Source: Vitellaria paradoxa
Taxonomy: Eukaryota > Streptophyta > Magnoliopsida > Ericales > Sapotaceae
Direction: 5' to 3'
Assembly (NCBI GenBank): GCA_019916065.1
Contig: CM034239.1
Coordinates: 34,434,419-34,498,418, forward strand
DNA: 64,000 nt
The number at the start of each line of letters is the position of its first letter. Position 1 is the stretch's first letter. Made by a program: the position numbers and the translations under genes. The notes beneath the pieces are model-generated. The model searched no databases. It was given only the letters and a program-made list of their open reading frames with translations, and was not told the origin of the DNA. Of the stretch, positions 1 through 62,345 are shown piece by piece.

Positions 1-1933
1 ATTGTAAGAAATCCAAGAACCTTTGTCTTTCTTGTGGAGACAATGTGTACAATACGGGAGGCATTATAAGTTTTCCATCAGGTCGCTCCTTGCAATGCAA
101 GGCTTTTCTAATTTTCATATCTTTTAAGTCCATGCGGGCTTTTGGGGTATCCTTGTTTTTTCCATGAATGCTCAACAGTGTGCCAATTAAACTGTCACAT
201 ATATTTTTTTCGATGTGCATGACATCAAGATTGTGCCTGAGATTGAGTGTCTTCCAATAGGGTAGCTTGAATAGAATGCTTTTTTTGTTCCAATTCAGGT
301 TGAATTTCTTGGTAATAGCTCTTTGAGATTTGCTCATCAATTTTTGCCTCTTAAGATTGTTTGGATGCTTCCCAAAGGGCTCATACATACCTACCGACAC
401 TTGTTCAAATATTTGTTCACCAGTTAAAAATCGTGCTTTTGGTCTATTCTCAACTTTACCATCAAAAAGCTTGCTTCTTCACCAAGAATGATCTTCAGGA
501 AGAAACGACGAGCACCCATGTACCCAATCTTGCCTCTAAATGACTGGGTTGAATGTTCTTCATTACAATTAGGGCAAGCCATATACCCTTTTGTTGTCCA
601 CCCTGACAAATTACCATAAGCTGGGAAGTCATTAATAGTCCACATGATAACTGCACGCATTTGAAAATTGCATCTTGATGATGCATCATAAGTGCACACA
701 CCATTTTCCCACAAGTCCTTCAACTTATCAATTAATGGGCGCATATAAACATCAACGTTTCGACTTGCTGCAGTTGGTCCTGGAATAAGCAATGACATCA
801 TGCAAAATTGCCCCTTCATACATTTCCATGGTGGCAAGTTATATGGTGTAACCATGATAGGCCACATACTGTATGAAATACTCATGTTTCCAAAAGGATT
901 AAACCCATCAGTAGCTAGGCCTAGCCTCACATTTCTTGACTCTTTAGCAAATTCAGGATGTGTTCTGTCAAAATTCTTCCACTCATCACCATCTGCAGGA
1001 TGCCTCGATATCCCATCATCAACTCGCTTCTCCTTATGCCATCTCATGTCTGAAGCCGTTTTCCTCGACATATACAATCTTTTCAACCTCGATGTAAGTG
1101 GGAAGTACCGCACCACCTTGTGTGCAATTTTCTTATCATTTCTACCTTGTGGTTTATATCTGGACGCCTTACATACTGGGCATTTATCTAGGCTTGCATT
1201 CTCCTTCCAAAAAAGTGCACAATCAAATTTACAAGCATCAATGCACTCATACCCTGAGCCCAAATCTTGTAACAATTTCTTAGCCTCGTAAACAGTCCAA
1301 GGAACCCTCTCATTACAATTGGGTAAAAGGTTTTTTAATATCTTTAATAAATAGTCTACAGATTTGTTGCTCCACTTAAACATCACCTTTGCATGCATAA
1401 TAGTGATAACAAATGACAACACACTATACTCTTTACAACCTGGGTATAACTCACGTCGAGTCTCGTGTAATAGCTTGTTGAAGTTTCCAACGTCCTCTAC
1501 TTCTATGTCGTCAATACTTTCTTCTGTATCATGATCATTGCTCAAATTTCCAAAATAAATATCTTCTAACATATCAAAAACTCATTACCATTTCCCTGCA
1601 ATTCATCACTTTTTCACTTTCATTGGTTGTTATTCTGTCCTGAAAATCATCGTCGTCGTCATTCATGGCAACATTTTCTACATTTGATGAACTAACTGCA
1701 ATATCTTCACCATGATGTAACCAAGTTGTGTATGTCGTTGACATTCCTCTCAATAATAAATGATACCTGACTATATTAATGTCAAGGTATGAAATGTTCA
1801 TGCAATTCACACATGGACAACGAATCTTTCCATCCAATCCAACACTTGCAGTAGCAAATTCAATAAACGCATTAACCCCTATTCTGTACTCGTCGCTCAC
1901 TCGATCTTTAAGTTTCATCCAACTTTTATCCAT
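1..1933 (-). pseudogene. CACTA transposase relic (transposase-associated domain plus TNP2 / Transposase_21)
   Basis: Minus-strand reading starts with MDKSWMKLKDRVSDEYRIGV (ATG at 1,933). This matches the transposase-associated N-terminal domain, including the Cys pattern RCPCVNC. It then runs into the TNP2 core, with motifs such as CPVCKASRY, RYFPLTSRLKRLYMS, NPFGNMSISYSMWPIM and MACPNCNEEHSTQSFRGKIGYMGARRF. Past the last long open stretch, the family reading continues to position 1 in another frame (NLRHNLDVMHIEKNICDSLI). There are three breaks: a one-base shift near 1,575-1,580 between the N-terminal and core ORFs, a one-base loss near 499-506 after the GARRF motif, and a TGA at 479-481 where an Arg codon is expected. 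The gene is therefore dead, but the order and spacing of motifs are clear. In an active element this protein would bind subterminal repeats and cut the ends. Confidence 0.85.
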
Positions 1934-8571: not shown

Positions 8572-10718
8572 TAGGGATGGCAATGGACCGGACCAAACTA
8601 GTTATTGACAAAACTGATAATTGAATCGGTCACTCGAACCGTAATCCGAAACTGAACGGTTTCGATTTTGGGTAATCGAAACTAAATCGTTCGGATAACC
8701 AAACTGTTCGGGTAACCGGTTTCATCAAAAAACTATTTTTTTTTCTCTCCACTACTAATACAAGGAAAACCAAAACAATAAATAAAATTAAGAGATCCAA
8801 AACAGATTCTAGCAACCGTGGCAGTTTAGGTCCAAAACTACAAGGAAAACAAATACAGATTCCAAAAACAGTGATAATCCCACTAACAGTGACAATACCT
8901 ACTAGTGACAATTCCAACAAACACAGATTCCAACAACAAAAACAAAAGCAAGTAGATCCAAAGCAAATTCCAGCAACAACACCAGATGTAAGCAATAAGA
9001 GATCCCATAGACCACATCAAGCTTCAACATTCCACAGCATCAAAGAACAGCAGTAGGGAGAAATAGGTCCCAAAAACTCCATAATGTAAGATCTAATTAC
9101 TAGATGAAAACACACCATTATCCAGCGTTCACAAACAAAGGGTTTAACTTAAATTTTTCATCGTTTCCATTTAAAATTAGATGCACAATTAATAATATCA
9201 AAAATTGAACCATGAGATACATCATCTCTAGGTCAGCAAACTAGCAATTATTTCAATTTACCTCATTCGATGGTCTTAACAAGCTTTGCTAGAATCAAAT
9301 CAGACATACTTAATTATAGACAAAAAAAGTTTAATCAATGTGAGCAATATGTAATGTAAAACCACAAGAAACATAAGATAAATGATAATTACCTCACATG
9401 TCACACACGAATCCCCCAAAAAATTACAAGATGATACTATTTTGATTACCTTTCACTTCTTTAGCCCACAATCAACTTTGAGAGCACATTAAGGCTTCCA
9501 TTGTATCAAGATGAAGTCTACTACGATATGGACTCACCAACCTACCATTTGTGCTAAATGCAAATTCAGAAGCAACCGTAGATACCGGAATAGCCAACAA
9601 ATCTCTAGCCATGGTAGCTAAAATTGGATACTTGGGTTGATTTGATTTCCACCAATTTAAGACATCAAAGCCTAGGTTAATGGCAAGACATCTTCCGAAA
9701 AATAAAGATCCAACTCCAATCTTGCAGTATTGATGGTCTTACTTCTCTTTGATGCATGAAGTTGATAGACAGCATACTTTGACAGGCCCTCTAGATCATT
9801 GGAAGTTGATTCGGAAGAAGATTGGCCAGTACCCTCCCTTCTTGAACTAGGACATTGGTACTCGTTAAGTAATTTGTAACAAAATTGGCGAACTTTCTCA
9901 ACTTCATCCTCAAAAGTTGTTGGAAACAACAATGAATAGTAGAAATCCAAAACTTTCATTTTGTTCTTAGGATCCAATACTAAAGAAACTGCCACAATAC
10001 CATGTATCACAGACCAATACTTGTCAAATTTTTCCACCATTCTTTCAGCTATTTCTTGAATCATCTCATTCTTATCATTAAGCCAATCTCTCAATTCAAG
10101 TCTAATCTCACATATGTTTGGAAAGCATTGATTTACAGTGCGGTATTAAGTTCCAGATAATAACTCAATCGCCTTAAAAAAGATTTTTAGCCTCGCACAA
10201 ACATCTTTGGCAAACACCCACTCATGTTCATTTGGTATTGATTCGTATTGAGCATCCGTTTGCTTAAGCGATAAAATACTTCCTTATACAATAGGGCTGT
10301 TTAAAGCATCAAGAATGTGGAATTCCACCTAGTTGCACAATCAAGTCCTAATTTCTTAGTATAAGTCACATTCAATTGGCATGCCGTTTCTTCAAATTTC
10401 TCGATTCTTTTAGGTGTTGCTGTCCAAAAAGCTACACTATTCGAAATTTTCTCAATAGCCACCTTTATTACATCCAACCCATCTTTAACAATAAGATTAA
10501 GAATGTGCGCACAACAATGCATATGAAACAATTCTCCACGCAATAATAGTGATGTACTATCAAGTTTGTCCTCTAAAAGTTCAATCATAGCATCATTAGT
10601 AGAGCAATTATCAACAGTTACACAAGAAATCTTCCTATCAATGTTCCAGTCCATCAAACAATCCAACAATTGGTTACATAGAACATCTTTTGTACGTGGA
10701 CATGGCACATATATGAAC

Positions 10719-42208: not shown

Positions 42209-43146
42209 CAGGCCTATCAATGGGACGAATCTGGATCTGCTTCGAATCAAATCTGCCAGATCTAAATCCAATTATAATGGATCCGATCTAGATCTAAAAA
42301 TAATTGAATCTGATTTGTAAGATCCAATCCAAATCCATATATTTAATGGATCCGACCTATTTTGAAAAATAATTTTTTAAGCCATCATTTCAAAATATGT
42401 TGCATATAATATATATATATATATATATAAAATAAAAATAGAAAGTACAACAGCTAATTTTTATTTTTTTATAATATATAGTTTATTACATAAATGTGAA
42501 CATATAAAAATCAATAGCAGTAACTGATAGATCACCTAGTGCTAAACCTACTAAGGCAACTAATGGTACTGTTGACAAGTCTATGGAGAATTGCCAGTCC
42601 GATGATGCAGTTGCCGTTGAAAGTACTATATGTATAAAAAATATGTAATATATAAAGATAATTATTTTTAAATTTAAATCCGTGCAACTCTATTTAATTT
42701 TATTAATTGTTTTAATAAAATAATATAATATATATTACACGTTTTAATTGCACGACACAAATGCCCAGCCCACCATTGCTTGTAGTCAATTTTCTCGTTC
42801 CCCATTGTCAAAGTACATAGAAATATATATAATATATTATATATATATAATAAAAATATATTATATATATAATATTTATATATATGCGACAATTAAGGAC
42901 CTGATTTTTTTAATTTATTATATTATTTTTCATTCTTAAATATTTTTAAAAATCTTATTTTTAATTTCAGATATTTAATTTTAGAAATAATGGACTGACG
43001 GATCATCTAGATTGAGATTTACTAGTTTTTGAACCCAACAAATTTAGATCTATTGAGTCACGTATTTAATTGGACAAATCTGGTCTAAAATTATTAGATT
43101 TGGTCTGGGTCAGATCTGGACAAAATCCACTCCATTGACAGGCCTA
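42209..43146. mobile_element. Non-autonomous hAT-like element inside the gypsy RT region
   Basis: CAGGCCTATCAATGG at the left and CCATTGACAGGCCTA at the right are inverted repeats of plant hAT type. AGATCTGGATC / GGATCCGATC units cluster just inside the left end. The 8-bp flanks TGAAGAAG and GAAAGAAC match poorly, so the exact ends are uncertain by a base or two. The interior is AT-rich (long TATA stretches at 42,410-42,430 and 42,820-42,885) without a transposase. It separates the RT active-site region from the thumb/RNase H part. Confidence 0.7.
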
Positions 43147-51880: not shown

Positions 51881-51927
51881 AGCAAAAGGTCCCTTATTTA
51901 GTAAACTTGATTAGCTAGCTCTTATAA

Positions 51928-52010
51928 CGGAAAATTGTATTCAAGTCATACTTTGTAATCTTTTAAAGTTATTAGTCATACCCAAAAAAAAGTATTGCTT
52001 TTAAGTCACA
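51928..52010 (+). repeat. Left terminal inverted repeat of the KI-type MULE
   Basis: Begins CGGAAAATTGTATTC right after CTCTTATAA. Roughly 65-70% identical by eye to the right end over ~80 bp, best at 51,959-51,995. Internal AAGTCATAC/AAGTCACAC phrases repeat at 51,943, 51,975, 52,002 and 52,034, which could be transposase contacts. Confidence 0.65.
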
Positions 52011-52181
52011 TTAATGTGAAAAGTTTTGTATTTAAGTCACACTTTTGAGTGGGTCCCACGAATTTGTTTTAAATATAATTTATAATATGACTTAAATGCC
52101 CTTTTTTCTATAATTAATTGAGATGAAGTTGCCGAGAATTATGGAACCGAGAATCACGTTTTTCGTTTTTGTTTCATTCCT

Positions 52182-52188
52182 TATAAAT
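52182..52188 (+). promoter_or_regulatory. Candidate TATA box of the transposase gene
   Basis: TATAAAT lies about 175 bp before the chosen ATG, within the left end region where MULE promoters normally sit. No supporting element was identified. Confidence 0.35.
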
Positions 52189-52358
52189 CGCGTGAACAAG
52201 CATATAGTGAGATAAAAGTCTGTTAAAGGATTATATACGAAGGAATAGATACAGATTACACGAGTTTGTGCAGCGAGATTAACGTCGGTCGAAGGAATAC
52301 GTACGGATTTGGATTACGCATTTGGGTGAGTTTGTGCTGTGAACGATTTCGGTCAGTC

Positions 52359-54932
52359 ATGTCTTCGAATTTGATGCTGCTATGTAAGTTTGGTACAGAG
52401 ACTTTTGTAGTTAATTTGAACTGTGAAATGTCATTTTCAGATTTTGCATTAAAGGTGTGTGAGAATTGGTCGAGTTTGAATTTGGAAAATGTGTCATTTA
52501 GCTCAATCCATGAACATTCTTCATGTTTTCTGAGAAACGATGTTGATTTTCAAAATATGATGATGTTGGCTCGCATGGTTGGTTTGTGTTATATATCGAT
52601 TGATGTTTTTTTCAGCTGTTTGAACACAGTACCGATCCAAAGCAGTACTGGTACTGTTTCCAGCAGTTCCGGTACTGTTTCTAATAGTGTGCCAATTGGT
52701 GATGCTGGTACTGGTCTGGATTCGTATGATGATTACTGTGATGTTGATGTGTATCGTAGTTCAATTTCAAGCCGTAAGGATAAACCATTGTTGTGTTCTA
52801 ATTGGTCGTCATTAATATTGAGAGTGGGACAGGAATTCGTAGGAGGTGTTGATGAGTTTCGTGATGCAATTTGTCAATATGCTACAGAGGTTGGCTTTGA
52901 ATTTTTGTATGAGAGGAATAACAAGGATAGAGTCGAAGTTGTTTGTGCAAAAAAGTTTGCTGAAGGGTGTCCGTGGTCAATTGTTGCATCGTTATCAAAA
53001 GTTAATCGTAATTTTTACATAAGGAAATTCAACAATGTTCACAGTTGTGGTCTGACAATTATTAGGGATAGGTCTAAGAGGATGAGCAGGAAATCTTTGG
53101 GTAAGTTGATTGTTGATCAGGTAGCATTAAAACCTTCAATGTCGCCGGTCGACGTTATTATATTTTTTTAAAAACAACTATGGCATGGAAATTAGCTATG
53201 ATAAGGCTTGGAGTACTTTAGAGAAAGCTAAAGACATGATTTATGGTGAGTATGCTGATTCGTTTAATCACTTAAGTTGTTATGTGAAGGCTGCAATGGA
53301 TCTTAACCCAGGCAGTCATATTGTGTTGGATGTGGATGACGGTATAAATCGGTTTAGACGGTTGTTTGTATCATTTGGGGCTAGTATACGTGGATTCAAA
53401 TATTGCAGGCCTATCATTTTTATTGATGGTACTTTCTTGAAATCATGTTTCAAGGGTATCCTGATGGCAGCTACTGGCAAGGATGCGAATAATAGTATGT
53501 TAATGTTCATAATATTGTGTGGTACTGTTTTTATGCGGTACTGTTTTATTATGTGGTACTGTTTTTAGTAAGATGTAATATCGTATAAACACAGTACCAA
53601 ATGCATCTAGTCATACAAAGAATGGTACTGTTTTTATACGGTACTGTTTTTGTGCGGTGCTGTTTTTGTGCGGTACTATTTTTGTGCGGTACTGTTTTTA
53701 TGCGGTACTGTTTTATTATGTGGTACTGTTTTTAGTAAGATGTAGTATCGTATAAACACAGTACCAAATGTATCTAGAAATACAAAGAATGGTACTATTT
53801 TTGTGCGGTACTATTTTTATGCAGTACTGTTTTATTATGCGGTACTGTTTTTAATTCGGTACTGTTTTTATGTTCATATGCAGGGTTATTCCCATTGGCA
53901 TTTGCTGTTGTTGATTCAGAGAATTTCGATAATTGGTCTTGGTTCCTAGGTCATTTGCGTGAGTTATTGAACCCCTCTGAAGATTTTACAATTATTTCCG
54001 ATAGAAATCCTGGATTGATGGAATCTTTGTCAATTAAGTTTCCTACATGTCATCACTTTTTCTGTCTACAGCATTTGAAGAACAATTTAAGAGATAAATT
54101 TAGTCGTGGTAACAAATCTAATGGATCCCGTGAATACATTGTGAACTTGTTTTGTCAGTGTGCTTATGCTCCCACAGTTGCAGCATTTAAAGAGAAGTTA
54201 GATGTTTTGAAGAGGGAAGGGGGTGCAATTGTGGATAACTTTTTGAGTGGATTCCCTATGCAAAATTGGACTAATGCGTATTCTTGTAGTAGAAGGTATG
54301 GTGAGATGTCTTCAAATGCCATTGAATCTTTTAACTCATGGATTCTTGATGCAAGAAATATGCCAGTGGCACATTTGGTGGACAAGATAAGGGTTAAATT
54401 AATGGAATGGTTTGCCATAAGAAAGCTCGATGCTACAAAGTGGAATGGTGTTCTATGTCCAAGAATGGAAGAGAAGTTTAATGCACTTGTTGATGCTGGT
54501 AGAACATGGACCATCAAGATGTGTTCAGATAGTATTTATGAAGTATTTTCTAATACTTCAACAACTGTTGATTTGGTGAATTGTACATGTTCTTGTTATG
54601 GTTGGCAAATTTCTGGTTTTCTATGCTCTCATGCATTTGCTGTTATTGGGAGGATTAACAGACCTTTGAGTGAGTTTGTTGATGAGTACTTTCATGTTGA
54701 TAATTACAAATTGGCATATGAAGGTGTGATTGTTCCAATACCAACAAATATAATCCAAGAGTTTGCAGACTGTAATAGTTCAATATTACCTCCAATAACA
54801 CGGAGACCAGCTAGAAGGCCGAAGAAGCGTAGGATTAGATCAACTGGTGAGCTTGTACGAAGAATTCGTTGTGGTCGTTGTGGTCGCATGGGCTCTCATA
54901 ATAAGAAGACTTGCAAAGAGCCGTTGAGTTGA
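52359..54932 (+). pseudogene. mudrA-like: MURA-type MULE transposase, two exons, one apparent frameshift
   Basis: Exons 52,359-53,494 and 53,884-54,932, joined at A|GTATGTTAATG ... ATATGCAG|GG, about 725 residues. An in-frame ATG at 52,266 exists, but MSSNLMLLCKFG at 52,359 is the more likely start. In order: an N-terminal PB1-like region; a Ser/Thr-rich linker (residues ~90-130) containing GTV repeats; the MuDR domain (VGQEFVGGVDEFRDAICQYA, CPWSIVAS, about 155-235); the MULE DDE core with Asp in IIFIDGTFLK (~355), Asp in TIISDRNPGL (~418) and Glu in SSNAIESFNSW (~525), plus CHHFFCLQHLKNNL; a SWIM finger CTCSCYGWQISGFLCSHAFA (~611-631); and a CCHC knuckle CGRCGRMGSHNKKTC near the end. The only break is a T7 run (53,163-53,169), where six T would keep frame (FFKNNYGMEISY). 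It could be a real lesion or a sequencing slip. Confidence 0.88.
53495..53883 (+). repeat. Transposase intron filled with GGTACTGTTTTT repeats
   Basis: 389 bp with consensus-like GTATGT and TATGCAG borders. Inside are about 13 exact and several near copies of GGTACTG/CAGTACC, spaced ~15-20 bp, in a higher-order ~157-bp unit: the AGTAAGATGTA stretch recurs at 53,577 and 53,734, each time followed by an inverted CAGTACC copy. It sits between the first and second catalytic Asp codons, so it must be spliced out for activity. Confidence 0.85.
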
Positions 54933-55587
54933 ATTATTTTTTTTTCTCCCAAAATTATGCTGTGAAGAAGTCTGTTATTGTTTGTTTGTTATGGTACTGT
55001 TTTTGAATTAATAATGAGAATGAGTATATTTCAATCCATTTTGTGATAGTTATTTATTTAGCGATATTCATTTTAATATTGGTATTGAGAATGACAACGG
55101 TATAAAATAGTACCGGTACTGTTTTTATTAATACTGGTACTGTTTGTAATAGTGTATCAATTTTAGATTTGCAGACAGTACCGTTGTCATTCTTATATTT
55201 TAAAGGACGTAAAAATTTGTTGGTGACAATAGTTGTAAGTGTTTTCACAAGTAAACTTCATTTGCAATACGTTGGTATTGAGATACTTCATACAAACAGT
55301 ACCGGTATAAAACAGTACCGGTACTGTTAATATTAATACCGGTACTATTTCCAATAGAGTATCAGTCAGCACTATTTGTAGTACTATCAACATAACAAGA
55401 ATCAACATCCCAAGAATTATTATACAAATCACAAAAACCATGACTATTTATGTTAGCACAAATAGTACCATTAACTAAACATTGACTATTTGTATTAGCA
55501 TAAACTGTATCATTCAATTTATAGGAAAAAAATGTTGAATATACAAGTATGTTGTTAAAAAGAAACAGAATGTGCACTAATACTGTT
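54933..55587. other. Convergent 3' region between the two MULE genes
   Basis: 655 bp holding both 3' ends. It includes inverted pairs such as AACAGTACCGGTACTGTT at about 55,312, a perfect palindrome around the central CCGG, and several further motif copies at 54,990-55,350. No ORF of note. Confidence 0.6.
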
Positions 55588-56332
55588 TTAATTACAATCA
55601 CAATGTTTGTACATCACTAATGGACAGAAATTGTGATAGCATCTTTGCTCTGTAAGCTTGTACAGCTTCTTTGAAAGCATCGGCTCAAGTGGCTCGTCAT
55701 TTGATATGCATTGCATTACGTAGCACACCATTGGCCCACAGTCAACACTGCACACAAGATGTTATAGATTGTAAGAATTTAGTTATAGGTGTTCAACAAT
55801 TTGCATGAATAAAAAAGAGTATGGCTTACGTTGTAGATCCTTGTTGTGGGCAATTTGCTGCAGAAACAATTGGGTATTCGAATTCCATGCTGGTTTGTTC
55901 AATGTTTTTTGTTATTGGATCATTGAGGTATTGGTCTTTAAGTTTCAATTCCACATACTCTTTCTAATACAATATGACAAATTTGGAAACAGTATGAGTT
56001 TTAATAAACAGCACCGGTACTGTTGTAAATAGTAGAAAAGAGTACCAATGAAATTATGTATAAAATTTACACACAGAATCTTACCACTTTCCTTGCATCC
56101 TCAAGATACAAATCTTTGGAATTTGCTCTACGTGGTTTCATGGAATTATAATGTGTCCATGTCCACGTGTCTCTATCCAATACCAAAAGGGTCTAATGGT
56201 TGGGATCAGCAGGAATTCTCGTTCCACTTGTATTCAAAGGGAATACAAGTAGTCTGTATGTATCAGATAGTTTCAACTTTTGATCAATATGAGTGTCTCG
56301 AGCTGCATGATATCTCTCAAATACCACAAATG

Positions 56333-56865
56333 TCTGCAACAATAAAAAATGCATGTTGTCAAATACCACATGCTTGCGATACTATTTCCCCTAAGATGCA
56401 TGCTCTCGCAAAAACAGTACCGAATGATTGTAGTATGCCAACAGTAATATGAAAATAAAAAAGAAGTCTCATATCCATCGCATAGCTGACAGTACCATAT
56501 GGATGACAGTACCACATGTATGCGGTACTGTTTTTATGTATAAGATGAATGCTATTTGAAAAACAGTACCAAACGATAACAGTATGCAAACAGTACCAGA
56601 TGAATGCTAGTTGAAAAACAGTACCAAACGATTATAGTATGCAAACAGTACCAGATGAATGCTAGTTGAAAAATATTATCGAATGATTATAGTATGCAAA
56701 CAGTACCACGTAACTAAAAAAGAAGTCATATCCATGCCATTTGCTGACAGTACCACATATATACTGTACTATTTCTAAAAACATTTATGCTCTAGAAAAA
56801 GAGTACCGAATATATATAGTATGCAAAAAGCACAATTAAACATAGAAATAGGTCACATATCTTAC
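56333..56865 (-). repeat. Ulp1-like gene intron with clustered CAGTACC motifs
   Basis: Intron between exons 5 and 6 with about ten copies of the motif, mostly as AAACAGTACCAxA. A ~67-bp unit (CAGTACCAGATGAATGCTAG, then TGAAAAACAGTACCAAACGAT) repeats near 56,590 and 56,650 with decayed neighbours. CAGTACCACATGTATGCGGT at 56,509 starts an inverted pair ending in ACTG. Confidence 0.75.
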
Positions 56866-58497
56866 CCAACACAAATTGCTGAAGTATAAGCATCTTTTGG
56901 GGAAAGTGCTGTTGACTGATTCATGTTGTGTTGATTCCAGATAGCGTACATGATAGTCAATTAGCTGGGCAAATATTGTGATTAGTAAATATCAGATTAA
57001 TTTGTTGAATTTAAGAAATAGTCAACATACTTTATTAATTCTGTAGAAATATAAGTTAATCATATATGCCTACCATGTTTGATATACTCTCATTTGCTAT
57101 GAGGTTGTAGATATCTTCAATGCTGATCATGCAGAGTGGTTCATTTGGTACAGCCCAAACAGTTGCACTGTGTTGTGTGTATACAGTGAGTAGTGAGATG
57201 TCAACAAGATCAGCCAAAAAAAAAAAAAACAACAATAACATGAGTTAAGTTTGAAAATGTTTATGTTAACAGTACCAGATAAAGGAATGACAGTACCAAT
57301 TATTTGTAAAAAATAGAGAACAGTACCAGATGATAGCAAGTAATTTTTTTTTATAATTGACAAGTAATAAAAAAGAAAGAGTTAAATATTGTCTTACGCT
57401 TTCCCCTCATTATCAATAAGTTTTAAGATCCGTTCCTTTTCTATGTCCGATAGATGTGTGTTTTGTTGAAAAGTTGAAATAATCTGCTTAAGTGAAAGTT
57501 GCTTGGGCTCGGTTTGATGTGTAGACAGTTGTAGAAGATCAAGGTCTATAACGCCAGATTCTATATCTTTCGGGACAACTGCCGCAGTGTCTGCCTTTTG
57601 TTTTTTGGCAATCTTCTTTTTACCACTGTATGTGAACTCAGGATCTCTTTTCTTTTGGCGTGTTTTGTCCTTGAGCCTCTTGTACATTGAAGGTGGTTCG
57701 TTTGCAGCTGGAGTTTGTTTTTCATTGGTATCCGACTTCATTGGCCTTCTAGTCGCTGCATGTTTCTGCGTCACCTGGTGGACGCTAGATTCGACAAGTT
57801 CAAACCTTAATAATTCAACAACTGCATTCACATTATCAAGTTCTTCCTTTAGGTTTGTGTTTTGCAGGTTGAGATTTTCATTTTCAAGGAACAACTTTGT
57901 CAGAATTTCATCTTTTTTTGCTATTTGCTTCTCCAATTAAGCAATTTTATCATCTTTTTCCTTGACCTGTTGCTCCAACTCTTCTATTTGTTCACGGTTC
58001 AAAAATGATAAAACTGAAGCAACTGGATCATTATTTTGCTGAACTGGTACTGTTTCTGCTGAGGCAGCCTATCTTGCCTCTTGTTCTGGTTCCTCTTGTT
58101 CTGGTGCATCTTGTTCTGGGACTTTTGCTGTTATTTTGTCTGGTAAGGTGCCTTCATCAGATTCTGGTACTGTTTCTGGAAGAATTTCAGCTATAGCAGA
58201 GGGAACAGTACCAGATTGATTGAGTTCAGGAGTACAAGACACCTCTTGTTTTCGCTCGCTTTCAGTTGCCTTGTTCAAATGAACTATATTTGTCTTCAGT
58301 TTTTGAAGAATGTCAAAAATTACTAACTCATCATCACTGGTTTTTTCTGACGCAATGATGTATTCATCTGTTTCTGTCCTTTCATCATCATCATTATCAT
58401 CATCATCATCATCATTATCATCATCATATTGTTGTTGTCCATCCTCCTCCTCCTCGTCATCCTCCTCATCATCATCATCAAGATCAGGTACAATTAC

Positions 58498-58993
58498 CTG
58501 ATATTTTGTTCATCAATTATAGAATTCATTAGTATGTCCATGAATACATTGTTGAATCTAGAATGATTTTATTTATCAGATGCAAACAGTATCATGAAAC
58601 ATAAAAAGAAGTGACAAATACAAATAATAGCTGACAGTACCACACGGATGACAGTACCAAATGTATGCGGTACTGTTTTTTTTAAAGATGCATGCTCGTT
58701 CAAAAACAGTACCGAATGTATATAGCATTCAAACAGTATCATGAAACACAACAAAACAGTACCGCATACATGAAAAAAAAAGAGCTCACAAATGCAAAGA
58801 ATAGCTGACAATACCACATGTCTGCGGTACTGTTTTGTTAAGAATGCATGCTCTTTGAAACACAGTACCTAATGCACGGATGACAGTACCACATGTATGC
58901 GGTACTATTTTTTGTGTAAGATGAATTCTATTGGAAAAATAGTACCGAATATTCTAAGCATGCAAACATGATTTATTTTATCAGAAATAGTAC
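58498..58993 (-). repeat. Ulp1-like gene intron 2 with motif hairpins
   Basis: About eight motif copies. At 58,636-58,680 direct and inverted copies are arranged as CAGTACC-N-CAGTACC-N-GGTACTG, the same pattern as in the 146-bp array and in intron 5. The flanking phrase GATGCATGCTCGTTC recurs in all three places. Confidence 0.75.
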
Positions 58994-59933
58994 TTGATTT
59001 TTATTCAACTTTTTGAGATTTATTTTTTTCAATGCATTGGACAATGGCTTGAGATCCCAGACTAGACATCTAGGTGTTGCACTCTTCTGTACTTGTTGGA
59101 CCAGAGTGGTATGCTCACAGATCCAGTACTGCATCATTTGTTAGGGCTGATTAGTTGAATGAAGTTCATAAGACAGTACCAACATATAATATAGAATATG
59201 ATATGAAAAGGTTACCGGTAACATCATGACACAGCCTGCAACACCTTTGTTCCTAGAATCCGAGCACAAACTGTTCTCCAAGAATTCCAGTATATGTGCA
59301 CTCCACTTGTATTGGCGGATTTGATCCAAATTTTCAACCAATGTTGTGTAGTGCCATGACAATGAATGTCCTTTGTTAGGGACAAACAACGTTGCCAAAC
59401 AGAAGAGTGTCAAAAGTCTTGCAACATCTTCTCTGCCAATGCGTGTTTGCTCTTCAGCAGCCTGCCGCAAAGCATGAGATATGTTCTGTTTCTTAATTCG
59501 TCGCAACCCAGAGAATCTACGAGAGACGAATTCAGTGCCTGGCCTTGCGATTTTTTTGACACTGTCTATCAGTTGTTCACCATTTTCTATTGCAAACATT
59601 GTTCGCAACTCTTTCTCTCTGATGCGAAACTTTATTCCACCTAAGTTGAAAGCTTTGGACTGTGGGTCAAATGTTTTGATGATTGTTTCCACATCAACAT
59701 CGCTTTTTCTCGAGTGATCTTTGTTAATTTCACAGTTTAAAATAGTGAGGATGAGCTTCCAAAATGGAGAATGTTTAAGATATACATGGTGTGCTTTTGT
59801 CAAGTTGATGGTTTCAACTTCATTAATGACTGAGATTAGGTTCGAACGGTACTGGATGTTCACCATGTTTGATTTTGTATGAGCGTGATTGCAATACTTG
59901 TAATTCGTAACATTTGTTTTCTGTTAGAGAATG

Positions 59934-61110
59934 CAAATTCATCTAGATACAGTACCACTTCTACGACAGTACCGCATGTCTGACAGTACCACATCATGCA
60001 GTACTGTCTCACAAAATATGCTTGCTTCGCAAAAATAGTACCGAATGATTATATCATGCAAAAAGCACCATTAAACAAAGAAAAGAATCATACATACAAT
60101 GAAATGACATACAGTACCGCATGTCTGACAGTACCATAGTCTGCGGTACTGTATTTTTTATGATGCATGCCCGTTCAAAAACAGTACCGCATGACTCTAT
60201 AATGCAAACATCATATTTAAACACAAAAATGGCTCACATATCAAAAGAATGACCGATAGTACCGCATGTCTGACAGTACCATAGTCTGCGGTACTGTTTT
60301 TTTTAAGGATGCATGCTCGTTCAAAAACAGTACCGCATGACTCTATCATGCAAACATCATATTTAAACACAAAAATGGCTCACATATCAAAAGAATGAGA
60401 GATAGTACCGCATGCATGACAGTACCATAGTCTGCGGTACTGTTTTTTTTAAGGATGCATGCTCGTTCAAAAACAGTACCGCATGACTCTATCATGCAAA
60501 CATTATATTTAAACACAAAAATGGCTCACATATCAAAAGAATGAGAGACAGTACCGCATGTATGAAAGTATCACATGTCTGCAGTACTGTTTTTTTTAAG
60601 GATGCATGCTCGTTCAAAAATAGTACCGCATGACTCTATCATGCAAACATCATATTTAAACACAAAAATGGCTCACATATCAAAAGAATGAGAGACAGTA
60701 CCGCATGTATGACAGTACCATAGTCTGCGGTACTGTTTTTTTTAAGGATGCATGCTCGTCCAAAAACAGTACCGCATGACTCAATGATGCAAAAAACAGT
60801 ACCGCATGACTCTATATAATGCAAACTTCACATTTAAACACAAAAATAGTTGCAAATATCAAAAGAATGACCGACAGTACCGCATGTATGACAGTACCAC
60901 ATGTCTGTTGTATTGTTTCATATTAGGCAATTGTAAAAATAGCAACGATTATACGTTTTAGGAGAAACTAAATACATAATACAGTACCACAAAACCTGTT
61001 ATTAGAAAGATAATCGAAAACCCTAAACAGTACCACACAATAAATATTCAAACCCTCGATATGTGTTTTATGGAAAAACCCTAAAGAGTACCTTTAATCG
61101 AATATAGTAC
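59934..61110 (-). repeat. ~146-bp tandem array upstream of the Ulp1-like coding region (probably its first intron)
   Basis: At least five copies. The phrase ATGGCTCACATATCAAAAGA starts at about 60,229, 60,375, 60,521 and 60,668 (spacing 146-147), then in diverged form near 60,846. Each unit carries CAGTACCGCATG, then CAGTACC, CATAGTCTGC-like spacer, GGTACTGTTTTTTTT, GATGCATGCTCGTTC, and AAAACAGTACCGCATGACTC. CAGTACC and GGTACTG in each unit form a short hairpin. Flanking parts (59,940-60,080 and 60,890-61,110) hold looser copies. Confidence 0.88.
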
Positions 61111-61329
61111 CTGTTTATTGCGAAGGACTGTAATGTGTGGATTTGCTCGGCGAAAAGTTAGGGATCAATTGAGGCTTTATTTGGAAGAAACTTTGATTAG
61201 TTTTCAGATGATTTTTGAAGAAGTTGGAAAGTCGCTAAACGTTTCTGATAAAATAGGGAGTTTTCAAATAACAAGTTTTCTGAGTGAAATATGCGCGAGG
61301 TCCTTTTTTGTCTTTTCGTTGCAAATATG

Positions 61330-61408
61330 ATTTATTCACAAATATTTTTTAAGGGTATGACTTAAATCCTTAAAAGTCTATAAATTGTGACCAGCCTCCA
61401 AAAACCCC
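61330..61408 (-). repeat. Right terminal inverted repeat of the KI-type MULE
   Basis: On the minus strand it begins GGGGTTTTTGGAGGCTGGTC, next to the duplication CTCTTATAA, and shares AGTCATACCC plus an A run with the left end. The Ulp1-like gene's promoter should lie in or near this end. Confidence 0.6.
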
Positions 61409-61599
61409 CTCTTATAATGCCCTAAAACTTTTGTCATGAGGCTACTTAAGAGATATTCATTTAATTAGTTTTTTGAGTTATGTGTTTCAAATATATGCGT
61501 GTTTTTCTCCCCGTGTGTGTATTGTTAAAATTTTATTCGTACATGCATCTATATATATATATATTTAATATATTTTTTGAGTGTTTTTATTTGTTCTAT

Positions 61600-62345
61600 A
61601 ATATCAACTCGCATTTGTGAACCAAGGAGCAAGGTATTATAGTTTAATCAATAATTAATTTAATATATATTAAGTTATATGCTAGATATAATTTAATTAA
61701 TAATCAATAATTAACTAACTTAAGTTAATTATAATTAAATTTAAGTAATTAAATTAATATAAAAATATTATATTAAATTATTTTTCATAAATAATATAAT
61801 TACATTCTATTTAATATATTTTATTTATTGAATTAAATTATTTTTAATAAAAATATAATTAAAATAATTAAATTTAATTAATAGCTAATTAATTTTATCA
61901 ATAATTAATTTAATATAATAAATTATATGTTAAATATAATGTAATTAATAATTAATAATCACTACATTAAATTAATTATAATTAAATTTAAGTAATTAAA
62001 CTAATATAAAAAATATTTTATTAAATTTTTTAATGAATAATATAATTAAATTATATTTAATATACTTTAGTTATTGAATTAAATTATTTTTAATAAAAAT
62101 ATTATTAAAATGATTAAATTTAATTAAATTAATTAAATCTAATTAATTTAAGTTATTTTAATCTAATTAATTTAAGTTAATTAAATTATTTAATTTAATT
62201 TATTTATTTAACTAACATAAAATATATTTTATTAAATTGTTTTTATAAATAATGTAATAAATTATGTTTAATATATTTTATTTTTATTGAATTGAATTAT
62301 TTTTACAAATAATATAATTAAAATAATTAAATTTAATTAATTAAC
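61600..62345. repeat. A/T-only tandem-like repeat, three diverged copies
   Basis: Almost no G or C for ~700 bp. A unit including ATTGAATTAAATTATTTTTA and AAAATAATTAAATTTAATTA recurs with anchors at about 61,827, 62,073 and 62,286 (spacing 246 and 213). Non-coding. Confidence 0.7.

Follow-up and report, generated by a model that had tools for sequence, protein, structure and literature searches.

A short DNA word, ACAGTACC, is concentrated in a single decayed transposable element on contig CM034239.1 of the Vitellaria paradoxa genome (GCA_019916065.1), in a stretch of 64,000 nucleotides (positions 34,434,419 to 34,498,418 of the forward strand; hereafter the window). This Mutator-like element (MULE), of KI-type and VANDAL-like anatomy, carries a transposase gene (gene A) and, in the opposite direction, a gene whose predicted product ends in an Ulp1 domain (gene B; Table 1). 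Since the anatomy of the element, its gene content and the distribution of the word agree, we favor the view that the copies of ACAGTACC are probably the target array of the element's own anti-silencing protein of the VANC/KIU type. The kind of system is already known from Arabidopsis; the element would use a word of its own. This reading was absent from the options offered by a preliminary description of the same DNA.

According to this proposal, the gene B product would be a VANC-like protein fused to an Ulp1 domain that recognizes ACAGTACC. The dense sites in the introns, in the spacer between the genes and in the DNA upstream of gene B would gather this protein on the non-coding DNA of its own family, where it would lower DNA methylation and thereby permit transcription of the element's genes; isolated matches to the word elsewhere would be ignored. 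Tandem duplication may have multiplied the sites, as may the transfer of composite units from one non-coding part to another within the element, and copies with dense sites would have been kept because they escape silencing. We infer that the gene B protein binds ACAGTACC and thereby counteracts silencing, and that the word is shared by other copies of the family.

Enrichment and placement of the word

Exact copies of the core of the word (GGTACTG or CAGTACC) were counted on both strands of the window, with positions 51,928-61,408 taken as the element. Seventy-three of the 75 cores fall inside it (28 of 29 copies of GGTACTG, 45 of 46 copies of CAGTACC), as do all 15 copies of GGTACTGTTTTT and all nine copies of AAAAACAGTACC. 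The preliminary description had estimated 70-80 cores in about 8.5 kb of one MULE, which agrees with the exact count, and the shuffled control that it had suggested gave a clear result: 200 dinucleotide-preserving shuffles of the element contained 0.59 cores on average and four at most, corresponding to an approximately 120-fold enrichment. Chance or base composition as the source of the word is ruled out by this control. In the 51,827 non-N bases that precede the element on the left, two cores were observed where shuffles gave a mean of 2.8 and a maximum of eight; hence, the frequency of the core outside the element is at chance level. These two cores are located at 42,565, the only outside match noticed before, and at 9,827, a second match that had gone unmentioned. 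With only two of 75 cores outside the element, a genome-wide microsatellite is disfavored within the window.

The best-shared 8-mer on either strand, and the longest well-shared unit, is ACAGTACC (reverse-strand form GGTACTGT), with 71 exact copies in the element and one outside. Its commonest 5' neighbor is AAA (29/71), and the base that follows it is A or G in 42 of 45 flank-cluster representatives (25 A, 17 G). The information content of the core over these 45 flank clusters was left out of the evidence because the sites had been chosen for the core. Variants with one mismatch account for 27 more sites in the element; 13 of these carry a C to T change at position 2 (CAG context), the pattern expected from the decay of methylated cytosine.

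The cores are strongly biased toward non-coding DNA. The modelled exons contain eight cores in 4,835 bp, and the internal non-coding DNA contains 65 in 3,917 bp (binomial P 2.9e-15, although the copies are not independent); the earlier impression that the motif also saturates the exons was therefore mistaken. Twenty-two cores lie in the introns of gene B taken together, with none in introns 4 and 7, and 24 were counted upstream of this gene, or 23 once the one assigned to exon 1 is deducted. Seven of the eight exonic cores are found in two linkers (52626-52714; 58046-58212), low-complexity by eye, where they all share one codon phase and read TVP, GTV or GTG in two different genes. Dense tandem arrays of a short word that is rare elsewhere, as expected of VANC anti-silencing systems, are present in the non-coding DNA of the element, judged within the 64-kb window.

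Both strands carry the motif, as had been noted before, but their use is not random: the transposase side has GGTACTG and CAGTACC in a ratio of 13:3, the spacer in one of 4:3 and the gene-B side in one of 11:39 (transposase side against gene-B side, Fisher P 3.6e-5, with copies that are not independent). In each gene, the sense strand therefore carries most of the copies of GGTACTG with its T run, and this form is dense in several introns, as would be expected if GGUACUGUUUUU acted at the RNA level and aided the splicing of U-rich plant introns. The DNA upstream of gene B is equally dense in the word, however, the spacer contains copies too, and introns 4 and 7 of gene B do without it, so that we consider a splicing signal highly improbable.

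Ends, gene content and decay of the element

The element was placed at ~51,930-61,410 on the basis of an 11-bp flank that is repeated on both sides with 10 matches, CTCTTATAACG and CTCTTATAATG; this is the type of target-site duplication (~9-11 bp) expected of Mutator-like elements. The sole inverted similarity between the termini extends over 68 bp at 70.6% identity and starts 15-20 bp inside the element ends. Absent or degenerate terminal inverted repeats are a feature of KI-type and VANDAL elements, though decayed ordinary repeats would look identical.

The outermost ~695 bp on the left and ~375 bp on the right are free of exact cores, the 68-bp inverted repeats included, and the end segments of 427 bp (left) and 288 bp (right) contain none either. 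These data bear on the idea that the word is a transposase-binding site, also raised by the preliminary description, through which the enzyme would cut or join the ends. In some other plant transposons, subterminal repeats serve as transposase sites and occur as inverted and direct copies; the word is likewise present in both arrangements, and many of its copies are situated near the right half of the element. Yet the word is densest in an intron, and with both ends free of exact copies, a transposase signal there is disfavored; the one-mismatch copies of ACAGTACC at 61,085 and 61,104 do not alter the picture of empty ends. Internal sites are conceivable, but overall we regard a role in transposase binding as quite improbable.

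The gene models of A and B are predictions made by hand from the DNA sequence alone. The domains of gene A all score above their Pfam cut-offs (DBD_Tnp_Mut, 51.3 bits; MULE, 38.1; SWIM, 34.5) and are split over two pieces of the gene, which has one intron and a frameshift; this identifies it as a MuDR/MULE transposase with a SWIM finger, as is typical of Mutator-like elements. Gene B is convergent with gene A and its modelled introns follow the GT-AG rule. The last modelled exon extends 28 bp beyond its stop. The Ulp1 domain (Peptidase_C48) scored 26.7 bits against a cut-off of 20.7 on the hand-spliced protein, in which X stands for one stop, so that the element has the Ulp1 gene reversed relative to the transposase gene that marks KI-type (KIU) elements. 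The frameshift in gene A and three in-frame stops in gene B (near 58,069, 57,937 and 56,193) make it clear that the present copy of the element is dead.

Among viral contigs, transposase exon 2 had no match, and of seven stretches that fitted the pattern of gene B exon 1 none was confirmed. In the surroundings of the element, Pfam searches with nine open reading frames outside it and one beside it returned CACTA and hAT-like transposase matches and one sub-threshold match.

Table 1. Features of the element and of its surroundings in the window
Feature	Position	Strand	Remarks
Whole Mutator-like element, KI-type anatomy	~51930..61410	.	Flanks at 51,919-51,929 and 61,409-61,419, 10/11 alike
Left arm, degenerate terminal inverted repeat	51945..52012	+	68 bp, 70.6% to 61,391-61,324
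Right arm, degenerate terminal inverted repeat	61324..61391	-	Pairs with left arm
Gene A exon 1: DBD_Tnp_Mut and start of MULE domain	52359..53495	+	Frameshift at ~53,160-53,175
Linker within gene A exon 1	52626..52714	+	4 in-frame cores (TVP / GTV / GTG)
Gene A intron	53496..53884	+	12 cores (30.8 per kb); repeats of 16 and 167 bp
Gene A exon 2: remaining MULE domain and SWIM finger	53885..54932	+	0 cores
3'-3' spacer between genes A and B	54933..55587	.	7 cores
Gene B, 8 modelled exons	55588..59866	-	PMD/DUF1985-like start, acidic and coiled-coil-like middle, Ulp1 domain
Ulp1 (Peptidase_C48) part, exons 6-8 and their introns	55588..56333	-	26.7 bits, cut-off 20.7
Gene B intron 5	56334..56865	-	10 cores; 55-bp repeat
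Gene B exon 3	57398..58497	-	Linker with 3 in-frame cores (58,046; 58,166; 58,206)
Gene B intron 2	58498..58993	-	8 cores
Gene B exon 1, PMD/DUF1985-like (both sub-threshold)	59216..59866	-	1 core at 5' edge
Upstream of gene B	59867..61110	-	23 cores; 146-bp repeat, 5.7 copies at 59,965-60,793
CACTA-type transposase fragment	427-1581	-	Transposase_21, 278 bits
hAT-like transposase fragment	9675-10145	-	84.7 bits; contains outside CAGTACC at 9,827
AT-rich tandem repeat, 246-bp unit, 2 copies	61643-62127		A little to the right of element

Spread and spacing of the word

Tandem Repeats Finder detected arrays with units of 16-18, 55, 146 and 167 bp in the element. A composite unit, consisting of a direct pair of words followed by an inverted pair, recurs in introns 5 and 2 of gene B and upstream of this gene, and self-BLAST connects it to the transposase intron as well. 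The linker in exon 1 of gene A resembles the spacer in two places (52,588-52,697 vs 55,049-55,162, 67.5%; 52,626-52,690 vs 55,296-55,360, 76.9%). In total, 61 of the 71 exact copies of ACAGTACC lie inside repeats within the element (E <= 1e-3); the remaining ten are those at 54,993, 56,016, 57,269, 58,046, 58,166, 58,205, 59,173, 59,949, 60,981 and 61,027, and their number drops to four at E <= 10. When the word itself was masked, homology of the flanks covered 33 of the 71 copies (E <= 1e-3). Judged by these similarities, duplication explains most copies of the word. The copying within the element that the preliminary description had listed among its options is accordingly supported for most copies, while its view that the motif lies in many independent places holds in part. 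The DNA of nucleosome cores and chromatosomes is close to 146 and 167 bp in length; the tandem units of these sizes (59965-60793 and 53515-53872) come near to these lengths, which may be coincidence.

The extent of duplication raises the possibility that the word has no function at all and became prominent only because the units in which it happened to reside were amplified by replication slippage, unequal exchange and gene conversion. The large share of copies in self-repeats, the composite units common to the transposase intron, gene-B introns 2 and 5 and the upstream DNA, and the likeness of the exon 1 linker to the spacer would all fit such a passive spread. When repeat units of different loci were compared, the motif columns were 86% identical (742/864) and the other columns 68% (1,077/1,583), but random 8-column blocks matched the motif identity in 96 of 2,000 draws, and the contrast in conservation over spacer DNA is therefore borderline. 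On the other hand, ten copies outside repeats compare with ~0.6 cores expected in the whole element, flanks support fewer than half of the copies once the word is masked, and the bias toward non-coding DNA is strong, although purifying selection on the exons alone would produce the same bias. The data suggest selection for the word but do not prove it, and we hold purely passive spread to be unlikely, though it is the rival account to be taken most seriously.

The arrangement of neighboring words follows some regularities. Orientation switches in 24 of 70 neighbor steps, so that most neighbors are direct repeats, and neighbors in the same orientation are ~17 bp apart. Where a minus copy precedes a plus copy, 11 of 12 such pairs start 36-39 bp apart. 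This distance is kept at 55136-55182, 58166-58212 and 53555-53598, although the loops in the spacer and in gene-B exon 3 have no detectable similarity to the others. Four composite units, treated as single-stranded DNA, fold better than their shuffles (z -5.6, -3.4, -2.4, -3.4), and together with the narrow range of distances this could point to stem-loops formed by inverted word pairs, that is, to a DNA hairpin or replication signal. Such stems, however, arise trivially wherever A/T runs accompany two inverted words, and direct repeats predominate; we therefore judge a hairpin function very unlikely.

The same distances allow a more specific version of the target-array reading, in which a VANC-type protein fused to Ulp1 would have not only its own word, ACAGTACC, but also its own site grammar (direct neighbors at ~17 bp, inverted pairs at 36-39 bp). 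This grammar would be kept even between three groups whose intervening DNA is not detectably related: the transposase intron with the gene-B units, the spacer, and gene-B exon 3. We put this forward tentatively and consider it rather doubtful. Should it be true, the protein might act as a dimer or as a bridge, and its sites would have spread in frame even into coding linkers.

Relation to known anti-silencing systems

Several of our results weigh against a VANC/KIU-type target array. The matches of gene B to DUF1985 (15.7-15.8 bits; cut-off 35.1) and PMD (20.2-30.0 bits; cut-off 34.9) are sub-threshold, none of 1,333 candidate protein relatives reached E <= 0.01, a sequence search of the PDB gave a single chance-level match (E 0.58), and the structure model of exon 1 failed, with a mean pLDDT of 34.8. 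Seven cores lie within coding linkers, and the conservation of the motif is only borderline (see above). Helical periodicity has been reported for VANC-type words, but a 10.5-bp period of the word was not seen in the element (vector length 0.10); the highest vector lengths among the periods tried were 0.34 at 9.5 bp and 0.33 at 17 bp. Sasaki et al. (2022, EMBO J), cited by a 2026 review considered below, reportedly found that the density of such words and their helical periodicity play a role, and that DUF1985, DUF287 and Ulp1 have been gained and lost. Finally, the sites of VANC21 are described as being in one orientation, whereas both orientations occur here.

If the target-array reading is true, the element adds one more natural pair of an anti-silencing protein and its target word, and the sequence by itself is enough to recognize it. 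From such pairs one sees how a transposon can evade silencing without harming its host, and with every further pair it becomes easier to work out which bases are read by which residues; sequence-specific epigenome editing has been named as a use of VANC-type systems (PMC5735166). Looking for a word confined to the non-coding DNA of one MULE would also be a cheap way to find such systems.

The closest parallels come from Arabidopsis thaliana. VANC21, encoded by VANDAL21 (Hiun), removes DNA methylation and binds the word YAGTATTAY, which is densely and tandemly repeated in the non-coding DNA of VANDAL21 itself; high word density is said to matter, with sparse matches elsewhere left unoccupied (PMC5735166). 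A crystal structure of VANC21 has been mentioned as unpublished (PMC8756742). As in our element, the context is of the Mutator type, and the short word is tandemly arrayed in non-coding DNA and rare in other elements (PMC5735166, PMC10398659). The VANDAL21 word is found in introns, intergenic DNA and terminal non-coding DNA, whereas the ends are empty here. VANC proteins carry DUF1985 (PMC5735166); in the element described here, the DUF1985 match is sub-threshold, an Ulp1 domain is present, two genes are modelled and binding is only predicted. Degenerate inverted repeats are described for VANC-bearing VANDALs (PMC10398659), and the combination of such ends with a target duplication fits the descriptions of VANDAL elements (PMC10398659, PMC6446971).

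VANDAL6 offers the same arrangement with a different word: the targets of VANC6 carry AGTTGTCC/AGTTGTAC, again tandemly repeated in the non-coding DNA of the elements that belong to this protein (PMC5735166). ACAGTACC differs from the words of both VANC21 and VANC6. YAGTATTAY is absent from both strands of the window (AGTATTA occurs 15 times), and AGTTGTCC and AGTTGTAC occur once and not at all in the element. By eye, ACAGTACC shares CAGTA with the VANC21 word and AGT with the words of VANC21 and VANC6, possibly by chance.

With respect to gene order, the element resembles the KAONASHI (KI) MULEs with KIU genes, in which the ULP domain lies opposite in direction to the transposase (PMC2528002). 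Ulp1-bearing MULEs are also known from grapevine, melon and rice; the comparison with all of these was made with published descriptions. The preliminary description knew of nothing comparable for KI-type MULEs, but the 2026 review describes KIU as a VANC gene with an Ulp1 domain and states that these genes recognize non-coding motifs of other KIU-carrying VANDALs (PMC13317346). More distantly, MuDR/MURA and Spm/TnpA are systems in which an element-encoded protein lowers the methylation of its own elements; MURA is said to act on terminal inverted repeats (PMC10398659), whereas the termini of the V. paradoxa element are without the word.

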